IMG/VR virus record: IMGVR_UViG_3300044681_000016
Coordinates: 1 to 23,704 of that record
DNA: 23,704 bases
From: a virus
Strand: one strand, 5' to 3'
This document shows, piece by piece, positions 15,750 through 23,704 of this stretch. Each line of letters opens with the position of its first letter. The stretch's first letter is position 1. Position numbers and translations under genes: made by a program. The notes beneath the pieces are model-generated. The model did not search any database. It had not been told where the DNA came from and saw only the letters and a program-made list of their open reading frames with translations.

Positions 15750-15778
15750 ATTCTACCATACTCGCTCCAGAAAGTCAA
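15750..15778 (-). promoter_or_regulatory. Sigma-70-like promoter for the metalloprotease gene, inside the end of the kinase gene
   Basis: TTGACT (15778-15773) and TAGAAT (15755-15750) are 17 bases apart. The -35 box and spacer encode the last residues of the P-loop kinase (LDFLERVW) and the -10 begins with its TAG stop. The downstream sequence AATTAAGGTATGA is identical to that after the promoter at 13905-13933. Confidence 0.8.
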
Positions 15779-16289
15779 GTACGGCAGATTGCTCCTCTAA
15801 GTTAGTGTTTGCAAACTCAGTGATATATGGCATCAAGGCAAAATTCGATAGTAAGTTATTATATTTAGTCGCCCTACCTTTTAGGAATTGCTCAGACTGG
15901 TCAGACCCCCTATCCTTATATCGTTGCTCTAGCAGATCCTTGGGCACGGTTAGGAATACAACATGAAGTTCCGTATTGGGCAAATCCATTGCAAATTCTA
16001 AGAAAGACTGGTTGAAGATCCTGTCCCCCTCGAACAAGATATTGGAGGTTGTTTCTGAAACAAACTCTTGGGCGATAGGCTGGACTGCCATACTCAATCT
16101 GTCAGTTCCAGCAAAGGTTTCACCCTCTTCGTATTTACCCAAAACATAAAGGTCTAGTTCCTTGCAATAAAGGGCAGGGAGCATCTTCTTGGGTTCAACC
16201 TTCTCCCATGTTTTGTTCTCCATAAACTTACGGAACAAAGTAGTCTTACCAGTTCCTGGGCTACCACCAACGGCTACTAACTTTCTCAT
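15753..16289 (-). CDS. P-loop kinase, candidate 5-hydroxymethyl-pyrimidine DNA kinase
   Basis: A 178-residue P-loop kinase. The Walker A is GSPGTGKT (9-16), and an acidic FEGDRIF motif (Glu87, Asp89, Arg90) occupies the Walker B/substrate position. It is small, cytoplasmic and has no extra domains. Alone it could be any nucleoside or small-molecule kinase. Its stop-start overlap (ATGA at 16286-16289) with a gene of the alpha-glutamyl/putrescinyl-thymine pyrophosphorylase group makes a 5-hydroxymethyluracil DNA kinase the best reading. In phages such as SP10 and ViI, that kinase phosphorylates 5-hmU in DNA before amino-acid transfer. GAGGAG lies 8 bases before the ATG inside the upstream gene. 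Confidence 0.8.
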   Translation of the reverse strand: MRKLVAVGGSPGTGKTTLFRKFMENKTWEKVEPKKMLPALYCKELDLYVLGKYEEGETFAGTDRLSMAVQPIAQEFVSETTSNILFEGDRIFNQSFLEFAMDLPNTELHVVFLTVPKDLLEQRYKDRGSDQSEQFLKGRATKYNNLLSNFALMPYITEFANTNLEEQSAVLDFLERVW

Positions 16290-17311
16290 ACCAAAAACTC
16301 CTCTAAATTGAAAGCAACAACTTGCTCTTCGTCATCAAACATCCAGTGAAGTCTGGACATATTTCCAGTGTTAACAAACTCAGAGAATTTCTCTTTGTTT
16401 ATCTTGTTCTTACCAGTCAACCTGCTATCTAAGGTTTCATTTCTGGCTTGCCATAAAACATCCCAATCAATACCATACCATCCGTCTTGTTCAACTTGAA
16501 GTATTTCCTCAGACTGTCTATCAAGGTAGTAGCCAAGATATCGTCCGTGGTGTTCTCTAAAAATCTTTTTGAAGGAACACAAACAAGTTTCCATAGTGAA
16601 GAAGTCAATTTGGTTTGCCAGTTCAGGAAACCTTTCTAGCATCTCAACCCTAATTCCTTCGCCAGCGTGCTCAAGGTATTCGTACTCTTTTCCAGAGAGT
16701 TTTCTATCATAATCGTCATCTTTGCCAAGGGCAAGAAGTAGTCCATTACGATGAGACTTGGAACCAGAATAATCGTCCAGCATGAGAGAACTAGGCTCCA
16801 CATTAACACCAGCAGTGTGCTTAAGGTGCTGTAAGTAAAACCAAGTAGAATAACGCCCAAACTTATGAAGGTTTCCTTTAAGTGCCACCCACAGTGCATC
16901 AAAGTTTTTCTTCGCATCGCCTTCGTAGTATAACTCGAGTCGTTCACGTTGTGTTCCAGTTCCAATAAATTTTTGATATGATTCAAACATGGCAGGTAAG
17001 TGACCCTTGTTCCACTTCGTGTCAGTTTGATAGCGTAGACGTTTGTAGTTAGAAGTATTCCATACAGTCATACGGTCTACTGTCGCCAACTCAAAGTCAG
17101 GAAACTCATTCAACAAAACCCAAGCAGTTGGACCATGATATGTGTTACCATATAACCATGCGAACCAGAGACGTTGCTCATCGTTATGTTCGTAACGCTT
17201 GTTCAAATAGTTCGTCATCCATACTGCTGGGTCACAGTCATTGTGCTTCAATGACCATGCATACCAACGAATGAACGCTTCTCTACGGTTTTGTTTTAAT
17301 CTGTAGTCCAT
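16286..17311 (-). CDS. Alpha-glutamyl/putrescinyl-thymine pyrophosphorylase-like protein (amino acid:DNA transferase group)
   Basis: A 341-residue helical protein with an aromatic N-terminal half (REAFIRWYAWSLKHND, LWFAWLYGNTYHGPTAWVLLNEFPDF, TDTKWNKGHLPAMFESYQKF). I recognise this pattern as the phage alpha-glutamyl/putrescinyl-thymine pyrophosphorylase group (probably clade 3). These enzymes replace the (pyro)phosphate on phosphorylated 5-hmU in DNA with an amino compound. The identification is from memory of the family, not from a search. It partners the kinase downstream (ATGA overlap), the usual arrangement for such pairs. It overlaps the phosphatase gene upstream by 16 bases. The C-terminus LEEFLV resembles the LESFF tails discussed for the dioxygenase and polymerase, but these codons also contain the ribosome-binding site of the kinase. 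Confidence 0.75.
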   Translation of the reverse strand: MDYRLKQNRREAFIRWYAWSLKHNDCDPAVWMTNYLNKRYEHNDEQRLWFAWLYGNTYHGPTAWVLLNEFPDFELATVDRMTVWNTSNYKRLRYQTDTKWNKGHLPAMFESYQKFIGTGTQRERLELYYEGDAKKNFDALWVALKGNLHKFGRYSTWFYLQHLKHTAGVNVEPSSLMLDDYSGSKSHRNGLLLALGKDDDYDRKLSGKEYEYLEHAGEGIRVEMLERFPELANQIDFFTMETCLCSFKKIFREHHGRYLGYYLDRQSEEILQVEQDGWYGIDWDVLWQARNETLDSRLTGKNKINKEKFSEFVNTGNMSRLHWMFDDEEQVVAFNLEEFLV

Positions 17312-17718
17312 TTAGCCAGCGCAGTCTTAATCAATTTAATAACTTCATGATGCATCTCTGTTCCTGAAGCAAACGCAGGATCTGGGATCTTGTTTACTCC
17401 TTGAACATAGTCAGACAACTTCTGCGCTTTTGATTGCTCACCGAACTGGTCAACAAATCGTTTTGCATTTGCGTCATCCATATAAAAGACTTTGTCAGCC
17501 CAGTCAACCAGTTCCTTGGTAGCAACTGATGAACGAATTCCTTCTGAGGGATAACCTTCTTTCTCTAAGGTCTCTCTCATTTTCTTTGCAGTGATTCTAC
17601 CATTCGATGTCTTCAATCCTGCTGACTTAACTTCAAGATTTGGGTAATCTTGCTTGCAGATGATTTCGGCAGCTGCACTGCGGTTCACATTACCATGACA
17701 CAGGAACAAGACTTTCAT
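17296..17718 (-). CDS. Low-molecular-weight protein-tyrosine-phosphatase-like protein
   Basis: A 140-residue LMW-PTP/arsenate-reductase fold protein. The P-loop is CHGNVNRS (Cys7-x5-Arg13), right after the first strand VLFL, and the general-acid loop is PDPAF with Asp113. All catalytic residues are present and the length is normal. These enzymes hydrolyse phosphate monoesters through a cysteinyl phosphate. Inside this operon it could remove phosphate from a modified base or intermediate, or act on host proteins. The start shares one base with the stop of the amidoligase (TAATG), and the end overlaps the next gene by 16 bases. Arsenate reduction is less likely in this context. Confidence 0.85.
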   Translation of the reverse strand: MKVLFLCHGNVNRSAAAEIICKQDYPNLEVKSAGLKTSNGRITAKKMRETLEKEGYPSEGIRSSVATKELVDWADKVFYMDDANAKRFVDQFGEQSKAQKLSDYVQGVNKIPDPAFASGTEMHHEVIKLIKTALAKWTTD

Positions 17719-18686
17719 TAGTAACCTTTCTGTTTAAGTTCTTGAATGATTGGGTATACGTCTTTAGATGATACGTTCTCGATGTCATCAATGTTAATAC
17801 GTTCACGTAGAGCATCAAGTCTTTTAATTATATCACCTTTCGTGTTTGTATCAAAGTTTGTAAACTGATATCCTTGTTCTGTTTCAAACTCGTATGGCTC
17901 AAACTTTGGAAACGAGAAGTTATCAGAGTTGAAGATCTCCAATGGGCTATCTTCGTCACCCAATGCTGCCTCTAAGAATTTCTTGCACCACTTGATACTA
18001 GATTCCATCTCACCAAGATGCAAAGTTCCAGGGAAGTGTCTGAACTCAATAGTGTTTGTTTCTTCCCACATCTGACGCAAGTTAATGCCAGCACGTGGGC
18101 ATTGGAACCAAGAAGGATTACCTTTGGCATCACGGTGAGCATGTTCCTCAAAGAATTCTTGAGTAGTAGTTGCTGCTAACATTGCTTCAATACGCTTTGC
18201 TGGGAGTTTGTGTTGATGAGATTTGTAACGTCTCTTCATTCGTTTAACTGCCCACTCATACTCAAGTGCTGGTAGGTTTCTATCTGGCACTGGGATCTGT
18301 TCAACGATCTCAAATGCTTGCTCTTGAAAACGAGTAATGTATTTTAGAAGTTTCTTACAAGACTCCAAATCGTCTTTCAATCCAGGAACACGAATGTGGA
18401 TGTGAAGGTTACTGCGATAGTTGACGATTCTCTTCGGAGAAAGAAGTGCGCCATTAATCTTAGAGATGTGATCAATCTGCTCAATGATAGTATTGGTTGG
18501 TCGTGTATTGATCTCACCACCGTAAGCGTAGAGTTTACCACTTGGGTCATTAGCAATACCTGTGCTGCTAACGCAAGTGTTGTCTTTATCATTCCATTGA
18601 GCGCCATCTGGTAGTTCAGCGAACCTGTGGCAGTTACCATATTCTAATTCTACGCCATACGACCAAGAATCACTATCATACTTCAT
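17718..18686 (-). CDS. Amidoligase-family protein (COOH-NH2 ligase, glutamine-synthetase-like fold)
   Basis: A 322-residue protein matching the Amidoligase_2 pattern: YGVELEYG at the N-terminus (Glu13, Glu15), YGGEINTRP (Glu59), NLHIHIRVPG (His95, His97), and NTIEFRHFPGTL (Glu214, Arg216). These conserved Glu/His/Arg residues bind ATP and metals in the family. Members join a carboxylate to an amine using ATP. The upstream gene encodes a class II glutamine amidotransferase, which could release ammonia for it; such pairings are known for phage and bacterial amidoligases. The start lies 11 bases inside that gene, with AAAGGA 8 bases before the ATG. The substrate is not readable; an amino-acid adduct on DNA is my inference. 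Confidence 0.85.
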   Translation of the reverse strand: MKYDSDSWSYGVELEYGNCHRFAELPDGAQWNDKDNTCVSSTGIANDPSGKLYAYGGEINTRPTNTIIEQIDHISKINGALLSPKRIVNYRSNLHIHIRVPGLKDDLESCKKLLKYITRFQEQAFEIVEQIPVPDRNLPALEYEWAVKRMKRRYKSHQHKLPAKRIEAMLAATTTQEFFEEHAHRDAKGNPSWFQCPRAGINLRQMWEETNTIEFRHFPGTLHLGEMESSIKWCKKFLEAALGDEDSPLEIFNSDNFSFPKFEPYEFETEQGYQFTNFDTNTKGDIIKRLDALRERINIDDIENVSSKDVYPIIQELKQKGY

Positions 18687-19368
18687 ATTGATAATCCTTT
18701 GCTTTATTGTTTACGGTTTCATAATCTAATGTTAAATGCGTACCTATCGTTATGGTGCAATATGTATTCGCATCCATAACTTCAGGTTCAGCGGAAGGGT
18801 CTGCTCTCTTAATAATGTCCTTAGTTGATGTCACCAATACCCCATTAGGGAGAGTCGTCATATACAGAGGTCGTTTACCACTACGATATACTGTCAGCTT
18901 TTTGTCGATACTCAACTCACATACACCCATTGACATATTAGGAAATTCATCCAACGGATCTTCTGAATGCAGAACAAGTTCACTATCATTTTTAGTAATG
19001 CAGTCATACCCATAAAGTTCTTTCCAGCGATGCGGAAGTTCTTGGGTTATAACTCCATTGTGAACAATACTCTTTTCAGAATTGTAAAGTGGTTGGTTAT
19101 ATTCCAAGTCAGATGTTGAGTAGCGACAGTGACCAATTAGGTAGAGGTTTCCATCTTTAGCAACGCAATCCTCTAAGTTGTCAAGATGAACAAACTTGTC
19201 TGCTGGCACTGGTTCTTTGAATGTTTGTATTTCTTTAGACCAGTGCGGTAGAACAGACATACCTGTTGCGTGCATCCCTCGAATCTTAGACTCAAGGAAC
19301 ACACGTCTTATTAAACTGAAGTCATCAGCAGAGGGTTTCCTGATTATAGCACCAATAACAGCACACAT
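18676..19368 (-). CDS. Class II glutamine amidotransferase (N-terminal-nucleophile hydrolase)
   Basis: A 230-residue stand-alone GATase-II domain. The start Met is followed directly by Cys2, the N-terminal nucleophile, which fixes the start codon. Other family residues are GHCRYST (Arg82 region), the oxyanion HNG (103-105), NQP, and DSE in TKNDSELVLH. It hydrolyses glutamine to glutamate and ammonia. No synthase domain is fused, so the ammonia must be used by a partner, most likely the amidoligase overlapping its end by 11 bases. The TAA of the dioxygenase lies 2 bases before its ATG, and no clear ribosome-binding site is present, so translation is probably coupled. Confidence 0.9.
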   Translation of the reverse strand: MCAVIGAIIRKPSADDFSLIRRVFLESKIRGMHATGMSVLPHWSKEIQTFKEPVPADKFVHLDNLEDCVAKDGNLYLIGHCRYSTSDLEYNQPLYNSEKSIVHNGVITQELPHRWKELYGYDCITKNDSELVLHSEDPLDEFPNMSMGVCELSIDKKLTVYRSGKRPLYMTTLPNGVLVTSTKDIIKRADPSAEPEVMDANTYCTITIGTHLTLDYETVNNKAKDYQYEV

Positions 19369-19370
19369 AA

Positions 19371-20669
19371 TTAACCGAAGAAACTTTCTAGAGTTGATAC
19401 GTTTGACTCTGGGTGATACTTGTGGAGGGTTTCCTCTCCAAGTTTGCGTTCCAGATAATCATACCACTCTTGAGACAACCACATACCCTCAGAAACGCCA
19501 TTCCAAAGAGGACGCCATTCTGGATGCTCTTTATTCATTCTACGCTCATCAACAAAGTCTTTGCGTGACATCTCGTATTCCCAGCTACCCAACTCAAGCA
19601 TCTTCTCACGGAAGTAGCAGACGAAAGAAATACGCTCAGCACCTTCTTCAGCAATCATCTCTGTGTTGCCGTGGATACCTTCATGGTTGTTAACAAGCAA
19701 CAGATCACCTGGACGAATGTTAACTGCAACACGATACTCAGGGAATACAAGATAACCACCAGTATACTTACCGTTGTTTGACACCACAGTTAGGTTACTG
19801 AACCCTACATTCAAATCACCAGCATCTCTGTGTGCTGCAGTTCTGAATGTCTTGTTAACTGTCACAGTAGTGAATACAGTTCCAGGGACAATGAACTTCG
19901 GATCAAGTTTCTTACATGCTTTGTTTTGTTCTTCCCAACGCATAGGGAGAAGTTCTTTGAATCCTTCAGACAAACTCTGCAGGAATGGGAATCCCATTTC
20001 AAATTTCTCATAGTTGTTGGCTGTGAATGAAGTTGGGCGACCGTATGGGATACGAGGATAACGATCAAAGTAACCAGCAATACCAGAGAACACAGAGTTA
20101 GCATAAGTCGTTTGACATACTAATTCTTTAAGAACACGCTTGGTCTCTTTCTTGGCGTCATCGCCTGACATCTGTCGTACTTCCTCAACCCAGTCGTCAA
20201 ACTGGAATCCTTCGTCTTTGGTTCTATTGATAGACCAAACTTGACCACGTGAGGAAGGTAGGCTGGATCTGTTTTCGCCATACTTGTCCATGATAGTCTT
20301 GATTGGGTCTTCACCAAACAAGTTCTCCGCAGGATTCAAAAACTGATCCATGATCTCGAATTGATACTCAGTAACCCATTCACGATTACCTAGAGTACCT
20401 GCTTTTGGACCAGCAGCAGTTCCACGATTCTGAGTCTCAACTGCTGCTTCACGCAGACCAGTGTAAGCAAGTCTTTGTTGCTCCTCAGTAAACCAGTTCT
20501 TGCGAAACTTGAAGATGATATTCTTTTCGCTATTCTCTTCACCGAGTGCTGGTGGAGCATAGAAGTCCATATCTTCTTCAACCAGCAGGTCGTAATGTTG
20601 TTCGTCTACAAACTGACCAAGCAAATGCTCAGAGTCATGCTTCATGTCAGCGGTGATTACCTTAACCAT
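19371..20669 (-). CDS. TET/JBP-like 2-oxoglutarate Fe(II) dioxygenase, predicted DNA 5-methylpyrimidine oxidase
   Basis: A 432-residue protein whose core (about 262-355) fits the TET/JBP family: TVNKTFRTAAHRDAGD with His280 and Asp282, GFSNLTVVSN, YTGGYLVFPEYRVAVNIRPGD, LVNNHEGIHGNTEM with His329/His333 (one is the distal iron ligand), and ERISFVCYFRE with Arg346 for 2-oxoglutarate. The family oxidises the 5-methyl group of thymine (JBP) or 5-methylcytosine (TET) in DNA. The N-terminal ~250 residues are unassigned. The C-terminus ends LESFFG, matching the DNA polymerase tail LESFFV in this window. I chose the ATG at 20669 because AAGGAG is 6 bases upstream; an ATG at 20708 would overlap the helicase. 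It heads the modification operon. Confidence 0.88.
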   Translation of the reverse strand: MVKVITADMKHDSEHLLGQFVDEQHYDLLVEEDMDFYAPPALGEENSEKNIIFKFRKNWFTEEQQRLAYTGLREAAVETQNRGTAAGPKAGTLGNREWVTEYQFEIMDQFLNPAENLFGEDPIKTIMDKYGENRSSLPSSRGQVWSINRTKDEGFQFDDWVEEVRQMSGDDAKKETKRVLKELVCQTTYANSVFSGIAGYFDRYPRIPYGRPTSFTANNYEKFEMGFPFLQSLSEGFKELLPMRWEEQNKACKKLDPKFIVPGTVFTTVTVNKTFRTAAHRDAGDLNVGFSNLTVVSNNGKYTGGYLVFPEYRVAVNIRPGDLLLVNNHEGIHGNTEMIAEEGAERISFVCYFREKMLELGSWEYEMSRKDFVDERRMNKEHPEWRPLWNGVSEGMWLSQEWYDYLERKLGEETLHKYHPESNVSTLESFFG

Positions 20670-20679
20670 TTCTTTCTCC

Positions 20680-22086
20680 TTAAAACTTGAACCCTTCAAA
20701 GTTCTCATCCATTACTCTAATTTTTCTTCCCATTAAAGACTTATCGAACATTGGGACATCGTCATCTCTACTTGAACTTCCTGCATCTGCAATTCCTTGT
20801 TGGGCTGACACTTCTACATTATACAACTTCATCTTGCTTCTGTCAACCCCTATAATAAATCTTTTGTAATAACTTGGATCATTATATCGGTTCTTCAACT
20901 GCTTCACCATAATCTGATTAAGCTGTTCAAGTTCTTCAGTTGAGATCAAAGCAAGCATCAAGTCAACTGTTGCAGGCAAACCAAACGATTCAGAAGTATC
21001 TTCAAGACCTGGATCGGAGTTTGTGAAACCAGATCGAGTCGTTTGCGTCGCACTCAAAATTGGAACACTATACTCAACTGCCAAACCACGAATCTCCTCA
21101 GCAATGCTCTTCACATATGTATAAGAGTTTACATTGGCACCTTGCTTCATACGTTGACTTGCGCAGATATTCAGATAGTCAATGATGACCATCTCAGGTA
21201 AGAAGTCTTTCTTCATCTTCAGTTCCTCAAGCAGAGCACGGAAGTGTCCTGCGTGAGCAGATGCAGTTGGATACTCTTTGATGATTAACTTACCTTGAGT
21301 CTTAGTCGCCAGCTTTGCTACCTTGTTTTCAAAGATGTCTTTGTCAATAGCCTTCAATTCATCCATGGTCAGATTCAAGAGGTTCGCATCAATACGTTCA
21401 GCGATTCTTTCTTCTGCCATTTCCATAGTTATGTATAATACATTTTTACCCTGCATTAGAGTTGAGGCAGCAACGTGACACATGAACAATGACTTACCAA
21501 CACCAGTACCTGCCAAGACTACGTTCAAAGTTTTCTTGGACAAACCACCTTTAGTGATACTGTTCAACATGTCAAGATCGAAAGGCACTTTCTCTTCAAC
21601 ACGATGATAGAAGTCATATCGTGAATCCGCATCATCAATGTAATCGTGACCAATGTTATTGTCGAAAGAAACAGCCAACGCATCAGAAAGGATTGATGGT
21701 ATTGCATCTTTAGTTTGCGTACCACTACGGTTATCAATGATCTTGATTGACTGCATGATAGCAAGATAGACTGCTCGCTCTTTGAAGAATTCTTCTGTTC
21801 TTCCGATCAACCAGTCAACATTAGTCTCACTGGGAGAAAGGCTAGAGATAATCTCTTGCGCATTCTTCTGTTCCTGTTCGTTGACATCTGTTCTGTTAAA
21901 TACCTCAATAGCCAACGCTTCTTTGGTTGCTGGCTTATTGAACTTCGTGAAGAAACTTACAAGTTCTTGAACAATTATGTTTTCAGCCTTATCCGAAAAA
22001 TACTCAGCCTTCACAAAGGGCAAAACCTTACGGCAATACTCCTCATTGTGAACTAGAGATCCGATAATACTGTTTTCAATTCGCAT
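20680..22086 (-). CDS. 41: Replicative DNA helicase, T4 gp41-like (DnaB family)
   Basis: A 468-residue DnaB-type helicase, close to the 475 of T4 gp41. The N-terminal domain (1-170) is followed by a RecA-like motor with Walker A AGTGVGKS (192-199), a following strand ITMEMAEER (the E of motif H1a), Walker B MVIIDYLNI and the SATQTTRSG motif with the sensor glutamine. It unwinds DNA ahead of the fork and recruits the gp61 primase. The start shares one base with the stop of the small gene upstream (TAATG). The gene order uvsX - small gene - gp41 mirrors T4. Confidence 0.95.
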   Translation of the reverse strand: MRIENSIIGSLVHNEEYCRKVLPFVKAEYFSDKAENIIVQELVSFFTKFNKPATKEALAIEVFNRTDVNEQEQKNAQEIISSLSPSETNVDWLIGRTEEFFKERAVYLAIMQSIKIIDNRSGTQTKDAIPSILSDALAVSFDNNIGHDYIDDADSRYDFYHRVEEKVPFDLDMLNSITKGGLSKKTLNVVLAGTGVGKSLFMCHVAASTLMQGKNVLYITMEMAEERIAERIDANLLNLTMDELKAIDKDIFENKVAKLATKTQGKLIIKEYPTASAHAGHFRALLEELKMKKDFLPEMVIIDYLNICASQRMKQGANVNSYTYVKSIAEEIRGLAVEYSVPILSATQTTRSGFTNSDPGLEDTSESFGLPATVDLMLALISTEELEQLNQIMVKQLKNRYNDPSYYKRFIIGVDRSKMKLYNVEVSAQQGIADAGSSSRDDDVPMFDKSLMGRKIRVMDENFEGFKF

Positions 22087-22373
22087 TAAGTTCCACCTTT
22101 ATAGACAAGTTCTTGTTTCTCTAAACCCCTCTGTATCATATCAACGAGGATGTCGCCGATAGTATTCTCGAGGTCTTTAATATTGTTTTCTGGAGTTGGT
22201 GTTTCTAAGTCATAATCAAATTGCAAGATTGGTTTGTCCTCATCTGGGAATCGAACAGAACCAATCGTGAACACTGCGCCAGCCCAAGCACCATCTATGA
22301 TAATAATCTTATAGTGGTCTTTGGAGTCAGGTTCCTCATCGAACCTGATTTGATAGTTAGGTGGTTTCCTCAT
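22086..22373 (-). CDS. Small unknown protein between uvsX and gp41 (95 residues)
   Basis: Unrecognised. From the chosen start it is [22 protein letters not shown]..., with a beta segment ([23 protein letters not shown]) and an acidic C-terminal helix ([23 protein letters not shown]). The ATG at 22373 is preceded by AGGAAG at 6 bases and overlaps the uvsX stop by 17 bases; the longer reading from 22445 would overlap uvsX by 89 bases and is unlikely. Its position matches T4 gene 40, but I make no claim of homology. Co-expression with helicase and recombinase suggests a replication accessory. Confidence 0.75.
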
Positions 22374-23415
22374 CGAGTTCTTCCTCATCTGTTGGTACAA
22401 CTTCATCTGATCCGAATTTATATTTCGTTGCGCAGTATGCGTCAATCTGACTCAAAATCTCTTTAGTGAAATACTGAGTAGGATTTTCGTTGATGTTCTT
22501 ACCAAATACTTTACGACCATCGGTTAGTTCAATACGACCACCTTGTGACTTCCAAACACCTGCTTCAATAGCAAGATCACTCAACCCATAGTATTTGTCA
22601 AGACCTTTACTGAACGACAGTTTGGTTTCAACCATAGATTGCTCTTTAGTGAAACGTGACTTCTCAAGTTTACACTTGATAATGTTACCGATGACTTCAG
22701 TGCCGTCTTTGTCTTTTGACTTCGACAAGAACACGATAGTTGATGCAGCATACTTCAGACCATCACCACCACCCATCGTCTTTGTTGGGACATAAGCACC
22801 AACGACAGCATACGTATGGTTAGTAACAATCATAGCAATGTCAAGTTTAGCCAGCTTCAGTGACAGAACACGGAAAGCACCACGAACCAACTGAGCACGT
22901 GTCATGTCTCGAGTTTCTTTACCTTCGCTTACGTCTTCCATTTCTTTAGTAGTTGAAAGCATACCCAACGAGTCAAGGCACATCAGAAGTGGTGGGCGAT
23001 CTCCCTTTGGTGCTTTCTCATAAGCATCAAGAATCTTAGTAGCCTGAGTTCTGAACTCTTGAACAGTCGATACAGGAACAATGACGAAACGGCGAGTGTC
23101 AATACCTCGCTCAGTTAACATATCTTTAGTCAACGCACCTTCAGTTTCAAAGTAAACAATTCCTGCTTTCGGATCTGAGTTAAGAAAATTCTTACAGATA
23201 CCCAATGCATAAAATGTTTTACCAGTTGAGGACTCACCTGCCAAAGCAGTCACCTTGTTACTAGGTAAGCCACCATAGATTGAGCCACTAAGCAATGCGT
23301 TAAACGCATAAGAACCAGTGTCAATAAAGCCAGCTGTGTCGCCAACAATTCCTTCGTCGGCTAGACCAGCGTATTCATTGTCAAGTTCTTTTACAATGTC
23401 TTTTAGAAAGTTCAT
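22357..23415 (-). CDS. uvsX: UvsX RecA-like recombinase
   Basis: A 352-residue RecA/UvsX protein (T4 UvsX is 391). Features: [20 protein letters not shown] upstream of the Walker A GESSTGKT (60-67), the catalytic-type [18 protein letters not shown] (Walker B), and IVTNHTYAV with the following glycine-rich [11 protein letters not shown] loop. The C-terminus is very acidic ([11 protein letters not shown]). It forms filaments on single-stranded DNA for strand exchange and recombination-dependent replication. The ATG at 23415 has GGAG 6 bases upstream; the ATG at 23436 adds seven residues without a good site. A consensus promoter (23439-23467) precedes it. Confidence 0.96.
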
Positions 23416-23438
23416 ATTAATCTCCATTAGTTTCAATA

Positions 23439-23467: not shown

Positions 23468-23704
23468 TCAGACAAAGAATGATTCCAAAGAGGACTTGGG
23501 TTCAACGCTCCACCTTAGTGGGTTAATTACAATCTCAAGAGGATCCAAGAAAACCTTTTCGAATTGTTTGTCATAATCAACATATGTAGTTAAATTCAAT
23601 TCGCTAGGTAGTTGACCTAAGAAAGAAACTACATCTTCTTGGATTGGGTTTGGCTTCTTCAGGTAAACAAATTTGATTTTCTCGCCATCCTTGATAAGTG
23701 GGTA
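23468..23704 (-). CDS. 43: DNA polymerase gp43, C-terminal 78 residues (start lies outside the window)
   Basis: Reading the minus strand from the window edge gives YPLIKDGEKIKFVYLKKPNP, then YVDYDKQFEKVFLDPL and NPLRWSVEPKSSLESFFV, then TGA. These are clear matches to the thumb/C-terminal end of T4/RB69 family-B DNA polymerase (DGEKIKFxYLKKPNP, QFEKVFLxPL, WSVEP). The final LESFF is the equivalent of the T4/RB69 tail that binds the sliding clamp gp45. Exonuclease and palm domains are outside the window. The stop is followed by the uvsX promoter. Confidence 0.93.
   Translation of the reverse strand, partial: YPLIKDGEKIKFVYLKKPNPIQEDVVSFLGQLPSELNLTTYVDYDKQFEKVFLDPLEIVINPLRWSVEPKSSLESFFV

Follow-up and report, generated by a model that had tools for sequence, protein, structure and literature searches.

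Why should an enzyme that oxidizes DNA bases end in the same residues as the DNA polymerase of the same virus? This question is raised by a 23,704-base virus fragment (hereafter the window, meaning the whole stretch of DNA that was analyzed), in which a dioxygenase and the polymerase gp43 finish in a common peptide. The window phage's own gp45 sliding clamp and most of its gp43 lie outside the fragment. A sequence-only reading had proposed that the oxidase is a clamp client that acts on newly made DNA. The features on which the analysis rests are the following.

19371-20708, minus strand: TET/JBP-type 2OG-Fe(II) dioxygenase, 445 aa (Pfam PF12851, E 7e-23; AF2 fold matches; invariant residues)
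19374-19397, minus strand: dioxygenase C-terminal tail STLESFFG, putative clamp-docking peptide (LESFF at 19377-19391; conserved in homologs; AF2)
23468-23704, minus strand: family B DNA polymerase gp43, C-terminal 78 aa, cut by the window end (T4/RB69 gp43 alignment; full-length homologs on related contigs)
23471-23494, minus strand: gp43 C-terminal tail SSLESFFV, putative docking peptide (LESFF at 23474-23488; in register with T4 EEKASLDFLF)
16286-17311, minus strand: ADDT (amino acid:DNA transferase, aGPT-PPlase clade), 341 aa (Pfam PF18724, E 8e-21)
16289-16309, minus strand: ADDT variant tail NLEEFLV, putative docking peptide (Leu nearly invariant in the family; AF2)
15753-16289, minus strand: P-loop kinase of the 5hmU-DNA-kinase type, context, without a detached tail (Pfam Ploopntkinase3; family tails)
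18676-19368, minus strand: class II glutamine amidotransferase (GATase), context, tail in 0/83 of the family (Pfam; family scan)
17718-18686, minus strand: Amidoligase_2, context, tail in 0/40 of the family (Pfam; family scan)
17296-17718, minus strand: low-molecular-weight phosphatase, context, without a tail (Pfam; family tails)
20680-22086, minus strand: gp41-type DnaB helicase, context, with the different conserved end NFEGFKF (Pfam; family tails)
22357-23436, minus strand: UvsX recombinase, context, tail in 0/77 of the family (Pfam; family scan)

The dioxygenase scored 81 bits against PF12851 (Tet_JBP; cut-off 34.9), and its AF2 model (mean pLDDT 87.5) was matched by Foldseek to CcTet (E 2e-10), TET2, and NgTET1 (Naegleria Tet). 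The iron-binding HxD...H residues (H293, D295, and H346) are invariant across the dioxygenase family alignments. Downstream of it, Pfam identified the GATase, Amidoligase_2, low-molecular-weight phosphatase, ADDT, and P-loop kinase genes, and the gene set from dioxygenase to kinase is a post-replicative hypermodification cluster. Based on the adjoining kinase and ADDT, the substrate of the dioxygenase would be thymine, converted to 5hmU or oxidized in a related way at C5.

When the two C termini were re-read, the reported identity proved exact: the dioxygenase ends NVSTLESFFG and the gp43 fragment PKSSLESFFV, with LESFF in the same register and, in each, a single residue between it and the stop. 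LESFF is encoded differently in the two genes (CTA GAA AGT TTC TTC in the dioxygenase and TTG GAA TCA TTC TTT in gp43), so the tail is not copied DNA, and copying between the two genes was ruled out. Among about 52,000 protein pairs in four related complete or near-complete genomes, no identical same-register terminal 5-mer was found, and a tail-like pattern occurred at 0.7% of internal decoy positions compared with 96-98% of dioxygenase-family and gp43 ends. Judged by these sequence comparisons, the terminal match is not due to chance. The dioxygenase stop codon lies immediately before the next ATG (19368), and it had been argued that no ribosome-binding site forces the codons at 19371-19397. 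The homologs bear this out, as their tails are encoded with the full set of six Leu codons and with both Phe codons, which rules out a constraint from the ribosome-binding site of the next gene and shows that selection acts on the peptide.

The gp43 fragment aligns end to end, with a weak E of 0.018, with the last 78 residues of T4 and RB69 gp43, and in this alignment EPKSSLESFF faces T4 EEKASLDFLF. T4 gp43 itself ends KASLDFLFG, and T4 gp55 ends SPSLDFLYEAND. The C termini of T4 gp43, gp55, and gp33 all bind gp45, and any of them can freely take the place of another; in gp55 the motif is carried by a linker that diverges both in sequence and in length, and RB69 gp45 has been crystallized with the 11 C-terminal residues of RB69 polymerase (PMC2988020), in agreement with the earlier statement that the polymerase C-terminal peptide is the gp45 docking site. 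The motif in gp55 and gp33 has been named LDFL (PMC9690074).

The conservation of the dioxygenase tail was analyzed in homologs collected by three alignment scans of viral contigs, single-protein scans, and a phage collection, which gave 163 distinct sequence sets. Tails were counted in the 150 distinct dioxygenases with a YHP anchor, using the pattern x-[LIM]-x-x-[FLM]-[FW]-(0-2) at the stop. Alignment of these homologs, the check that the sequence-only reading had put forward, showed the pattern at the C terminus of 148 of the 150. Within the tail, the entropy is 0.38 bits at Leu, 0.63 at Glu/Asp, 0.63 at the first Phe, and 0.06 at the second, compared with 2.37 at the free position and 2.3-3.0 in the linker, which is 3-11 aa long and variable in sequence. 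The gp43 proteins on related contigs carry the same tail in 59 of 61 cases by the strict pattern and 60 of 61 by the broad one. Exceptions include Cr30 (dioxygenase TGATLF, gp43 DLSSLFD, and TAGT DLSKLF), L195 (TLDAFL), L150 (SFEDFICE), and L140, whose dioxygenase has a Cys-rich extension and no terminal tail, whose gp43 ends EEQVSLF, and which encodes a gp45 relative. In this 145-kb phage (L140 11270-11371 and L278), the gp43 end EEEEQVSLF resembles a bacterial β-clamp motif. In bacterial genomes, the scan turned up distant TET relatives only, which were without tails, and once phages lacking gp45 were added, the alignments diverged too much to be searched for patterns.

Both the dioxygenase tail and the ADDT tail are placed outside the confident folded body in the AF2 models. 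Residues 441-445 of the dioxygenase have a mean pLDDT of 61, with a helical turn at 440-444, in a protein whose body is mostly about 90, and residues 331-341 of the ADDT have a pLDDT of 43-54, with a helical turn at 336-339 and a body of about 95. As modeled, such low-confidence tails would fit a peptide that becomes ordered on binding.

Is the dioxygenase the only modification enzyme that carries the peptide? It had been stated that the other proteins in the window lack it, and this is where the earlier account was wrong, since the ADDT in the window ends AFNLEEFLV at its stop, a variant maintained across the ADDT family, and the tail is also present on further modification enzymes in related phages. 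The dioxygenase is thus not a single carrier, and the error strengthens the case for a clamp client. The ADDT family retains a terminal [GSN]LExF even at 25-50% identity (SLESFFGDS, GLENFL, SLDKFF, and TLDHLFEV). When 54-55 same-strand families around the dioxygenase were scanned (families being reported if at least half of their members were tailed, at a decoy rate of 0.7%), the tailed families were gp43 (52/53), the dioxygenase (143/149), a GT4-type glycosyltransferase (9/9), a 226-aa GNAT (33-34/38), and ADDT (49-61 of 77-78), and the tail was found in none of the UvsX, GATase, and amidoligase family members. Smaller sets with a tail are TAGT glycosyltransferases (NTLDEFFG, STLEGFF, and SDLSSFFN), a second GNAT (SVDLNSFL), and, in C48C1, a D12 adenine methyltransferase directly after gp43 (33480-34364; STLDAFFG). 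In G001, a 170-kb record, the tail is found on the products of 4 of 179 ORFs, namely gp43, the dioxygenase, the GNAT, and the ADDT.

Some protein ends resemble the tail. The kinase in the window was considered as a clamp client and rejected, as its LDFLERVW continues a conserved C-terminal stretch and is not a detached tail. Thioredoxin ends LLEFLKG, gp26-like baseplate proteins also match the broad pattern, and gp41 matches a looser one, so that the motif by itself is no proof, and we rejected the broad pattern as the only evidence. The gp26-like baseplate hub proteins, for which a clamp role is not expected, end [LIM]xxFF in C48C1 (115098-115805), phiW-14 (gp26; L330:12980-13750), G001 (17284-18018), and DLP6 (135667-136368). 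Most members of the gp41-type helicase family, in the window and in relatives, end in a conserved peptide of their own, FxG(F/W)KF.

If the tail binds the same partner as the polymerase C terminus, the two would be expected to change together between phages. That the tails of modification enzymes vary along with that of the polymerase holds across phage groups, and for the dioxygenase it fails letter for letter: some dioxygenases end LEDLF(G) or LENMF(A) beside a gp43 ending LEDFFS or LDCFFS (L193, L218, and L226), and co-variation of the FF and LF subtypes was rejected on these cases. Across groups, the strongest test came from hmdU phages, in which the polymerase tails are unrelated. Vibrio phage D506 has a KxLW type of tail on its polymerase (KKARKLW), kinase (AKTKKLW), ADDT (KTRKLW), and second ADDT-like protein (STKRLW), and no further ORF in its 49 kb has such an end. 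In Salmonella phage ViI, the polymerase RRVNLLSMMGKKG, the kinase SSVSLLGLMRKA, and the ADDT TSVNLMSLLKR have VxL(L/M)x(L/M)(L/M) in common, and tails of this type are also found in Dickeya phage RC-2014 and one Klebsiella phage. An LGxF(F) type is present in phiW-14 on the polymerase (AKLGAFFV), ADDT (GLGSFFR), putative kinase (GLGGFFKG; a 267-aa protein assigned by similarity to an M6 protein), an exonuclease, and gp33 (SLGGFAAT). The phiW-14 exonuclease, gp032 (L330:16497-17357; end GLGGFFA), may from its terminal sequence be a further clamp client. In Cygsa01, the polymerase ends ASVMDFFS, the kinase NVFDLF, the ADDT NDLMGFFQ, and the second ADDT-like protein KSVLDLF. All of these phages encode gp45. 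The true pairing of enzyme tails with polymerase tails was the best of 40,320 permutations across eight phage groups and the best of 120 for the non-TET phages alone, for phages that were picked by ADDT/TET content and not at random, with related phages merged by hand.

The presence of the tail was also compared with that of gp45. Relatives of the window phage encode gp45 (G001, with an E of 4e-27 against T4 gp45, DLP6, Cr30, and C48C1). In M6 and Mycobacterium phage Zemanar, an ADDT is present without a tail, and gp45 was not detected. Nor was gp45 detected in S-CBWM1 (in which no PolB was found either), HTVC112P, or P12024L, and their dioxygenases have no tail. One exception to the pairing is Aeromonas phage TSW001 (L294/L305/L311), in which both ADDTs end TKKLW and the polymerase ends KVNVLKFFKQKEA; perhaps this mismatch reflects transferred genes or a second clamp site. 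The end of the TSW001 ADDTs is the tail of the Vibrio D506 polymerase.

The tail had also been offered as the explanation of how a genome can be modified without modified dNTP pools. This part of the proposal does not stand. A divergent ThyA-type enzyme, of the kind that modifies dUMP, is encoded in ViI, D506, and phiW-14, which probably make hmdU at the nucleotide level, and was not found in the TET phages G001, DLP6, and C48C1; modification without modified dNTPs is therefore the doing of the TET/JBP oxygenase. Phages of the dNTP route are tailed as well, on the enzymes of later steps (kinase and ADDT).

Based on the results above, it is highly probable that the dioxygenase tail is a gp45-binding motif and that the dioxygenase is one of several clamp clients in DNA hypermodification, modifying DNA after its synthesis. 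The claim that the base oxidase is a clamp client is thus retained, in that its tail is of the docking type, is conserved together with that of gp43, and is absent from homologs in phages where no PolB or gp45 was detected, and in that the tails of modification enzymes follow the polymerase tail between groups; it is amended, in that there are other clients besides the oxidase. With its eight C-terminal residues, which are hydrophobic and acidic and follow a flexible linker, the dioxygenase would occupy the same gp45 site as the polymerase C terminus. Docking on gp45 would keep these enzymes close to duplex DNA that has just been synthesized, with several tailed enzymes sharing one clamp ring, and both base oxidation and the subsequent additions would then occur on the duplex soon after it is made. 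The dioxygenase and the ADDT, which works on the polymer, are tailed, and the enzymes thought to prepare small molecules (GATase, amidoligase, and phosphatase) are not. The sequences show directly that the peptides exist, are conserved, recur on unrelated enzymes, match the polymerase, and are present or absent with gp45, whereas we infer that they physically bind gp45, that modification is coupled to the fork and takes place on new DNA, and which base is modified. Counted against gp45 clients are the TSW001 mismatch, LEDLF and LENMF beside an FF-type gp43, the untailed L140 enzyme in a phage with a gp45 relative, the look-alike ends, and T4 α-glucosyltransferase, which binds gp45 without such a C terminus (it ends FKEQFDIITK).

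A broader proposal, which we hold with somewhat more belief than doubt, is that hypermodification in the T4 superfamily is a clamp-borne assembly line, in which unrelated enzymes (a TET/JBP oxygenase or hmU-DNA kinase, an amino-acid transferase, an acetyltransferase, a glycosyltransferase, and a methyltransferase) have each acquired a polymerase-matched peptide at the C terminus. The gp45 trimer would deliver these enzymes to new DNA, and the peptide code would diverge between phages as the clamp does.

Docking on gp45 need not mean coupling to the fork. The tail could use the clamp as a DNA-tracking platform at any time, for processive modification of the whole genome, which we regard as possible, although short of probable. 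T4 gp55 and gp33 work through a tail of this kind, attached to clamps that track along DNA away from the fork (PMC2988020), and binding of T4 α-glucosyltransferase to gp45 was confirmed by pull-down and found not to be the main determinant of glucosylation levels (PMC13216743). The tail type of phiW-14 gp33, which is that of the phiW-14 kinase and ADDT, points in the same direction. On the other side, loading of T4 gp45 takes place chiefly at primer-template junctions and the ring is easily lost from DNA, which favors recently replicated DNA. The sequence data presented here appear compatible with both tracking and fork coupling.

An unlikely alternative is that the tail binds some other replisome partner that recognizes the polymerase C terminus, for instance the clamp loader or a scaffold specific to the phage. 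The TSW001 ADDTs, which share KKLW with each other and not with their own polymerase, are what would be expected if there were more than one site. However, the T4/RB69 polymerase C terminus binds gp45 and is interchangeable with the gp55 and gp33 tails (PMC2988020), and phiW-14 gp33 has the same tail type as the modification enzymes. It is very improbable that the similarity arises from chance or from a structural feature of a C-terminal helix; the superficially similar ends of thioredoxin, the gp26-like protein, and the kinase would be accounted for in this way, but the tail is common to unrelated families, is joined by variable linkers to a folded body of which it is no part, and becomes KxLW or VNLLSMM-type where the polymerase tail does. 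Hydrophobic C termini can be recognized by host proteases, yet a degradation or stability signal of early proteins is scarcely credible here, as the tail is absent from the adjoining early proteins UvsX, GATase, and amidoligase and such a signal would not be expected to change between phages along with the polymerase sequence.

Modification of DNA by clamp-bound enzymes, the mode of action favored here, is already known in principle from T4 α-glucosyltransferase and DNMT1. T4 α-glucosyltransferase was reportedly found bound to gp45 by Sommer in 2004. As is predicted for the enzymes analyzed here, this phage DNA modifier sits on the clamp, and it has been proposed to work alongside replication; unlike them, it lacks the polymerase-matched peptide that several unrelated enzymes carry here, and it is not a homolog of them. 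In eukaryotes, DNMT1 is recruited to newly made DNA via PCNA by a clamp-binding peptide (PMC9690074), a likeness in how a modification enzyme is brought to new DNA, although the clamp and the enzyme are different and DNMT1 maintains methylation marks, whereas here bases are oxidized and built into large adducts. With T4 gp43, gp55, and gp33, the proteins studied here have in common the type of C-terminal motif and a gp45-encoding phage; they differ in that the clients are DNA base-modification enzymes, with binding predicted from sequence. The pathway also resembles thymine hypermodification in ViI, phiW-14, and M6 in the presence of a P-loop kinase and an ADDT, and in ViI and phiW-14 these two enzymes likewise match their own polymerase tail, whereas M6 has no detectable gp45 and no tails. 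The first oxidation here is probably made on DNA by the TET/JBP oxygenase, in contrast to the dUMP hydroxymethylase and dNTP incorporation of those phages.

In the searchable literature, outside of which most subscription papers lie, we came across no description of a clamp motif on a TET or ADDT enzyme of a phage; the only phage modification enzyme reported there to bind a clamp was T4 α-glucosyltransferase, and a polymerase-matched, co-varying docking peptide on TET/JBP oxygenases, ADDT, kinases, acetyltransferases, or glycosyltransferases was not found. The present comparison of protein ends suggests that, in a large T4-related phage group, DNA-decorating enzymes ride on the replication clamp, with tails that change together between viruses. 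How phages achieve early modification of most or all of their bases without modified dNTPs, ahead of host nucleases, is poorly explained, and a polymerase-matched clamp tag on modification enzymes offers a concrete, testable mechanism. It also provides a sequence rule for finding new modification enzymes, namely proteins of a T4-type genome that end like their own polymerase, which in phiW-14 picks out the kinase, ADDT, exonuclease, and gp33 and in the 49 kb of D506 exactly the kinase and the two ADDTs.

In public records, TET/JBP homologs from DLP6, Cr30, S-CBWM1, and HTVC112P are labeled "SNF2 DNA repair protein," which seems to be a propagated misannotation.
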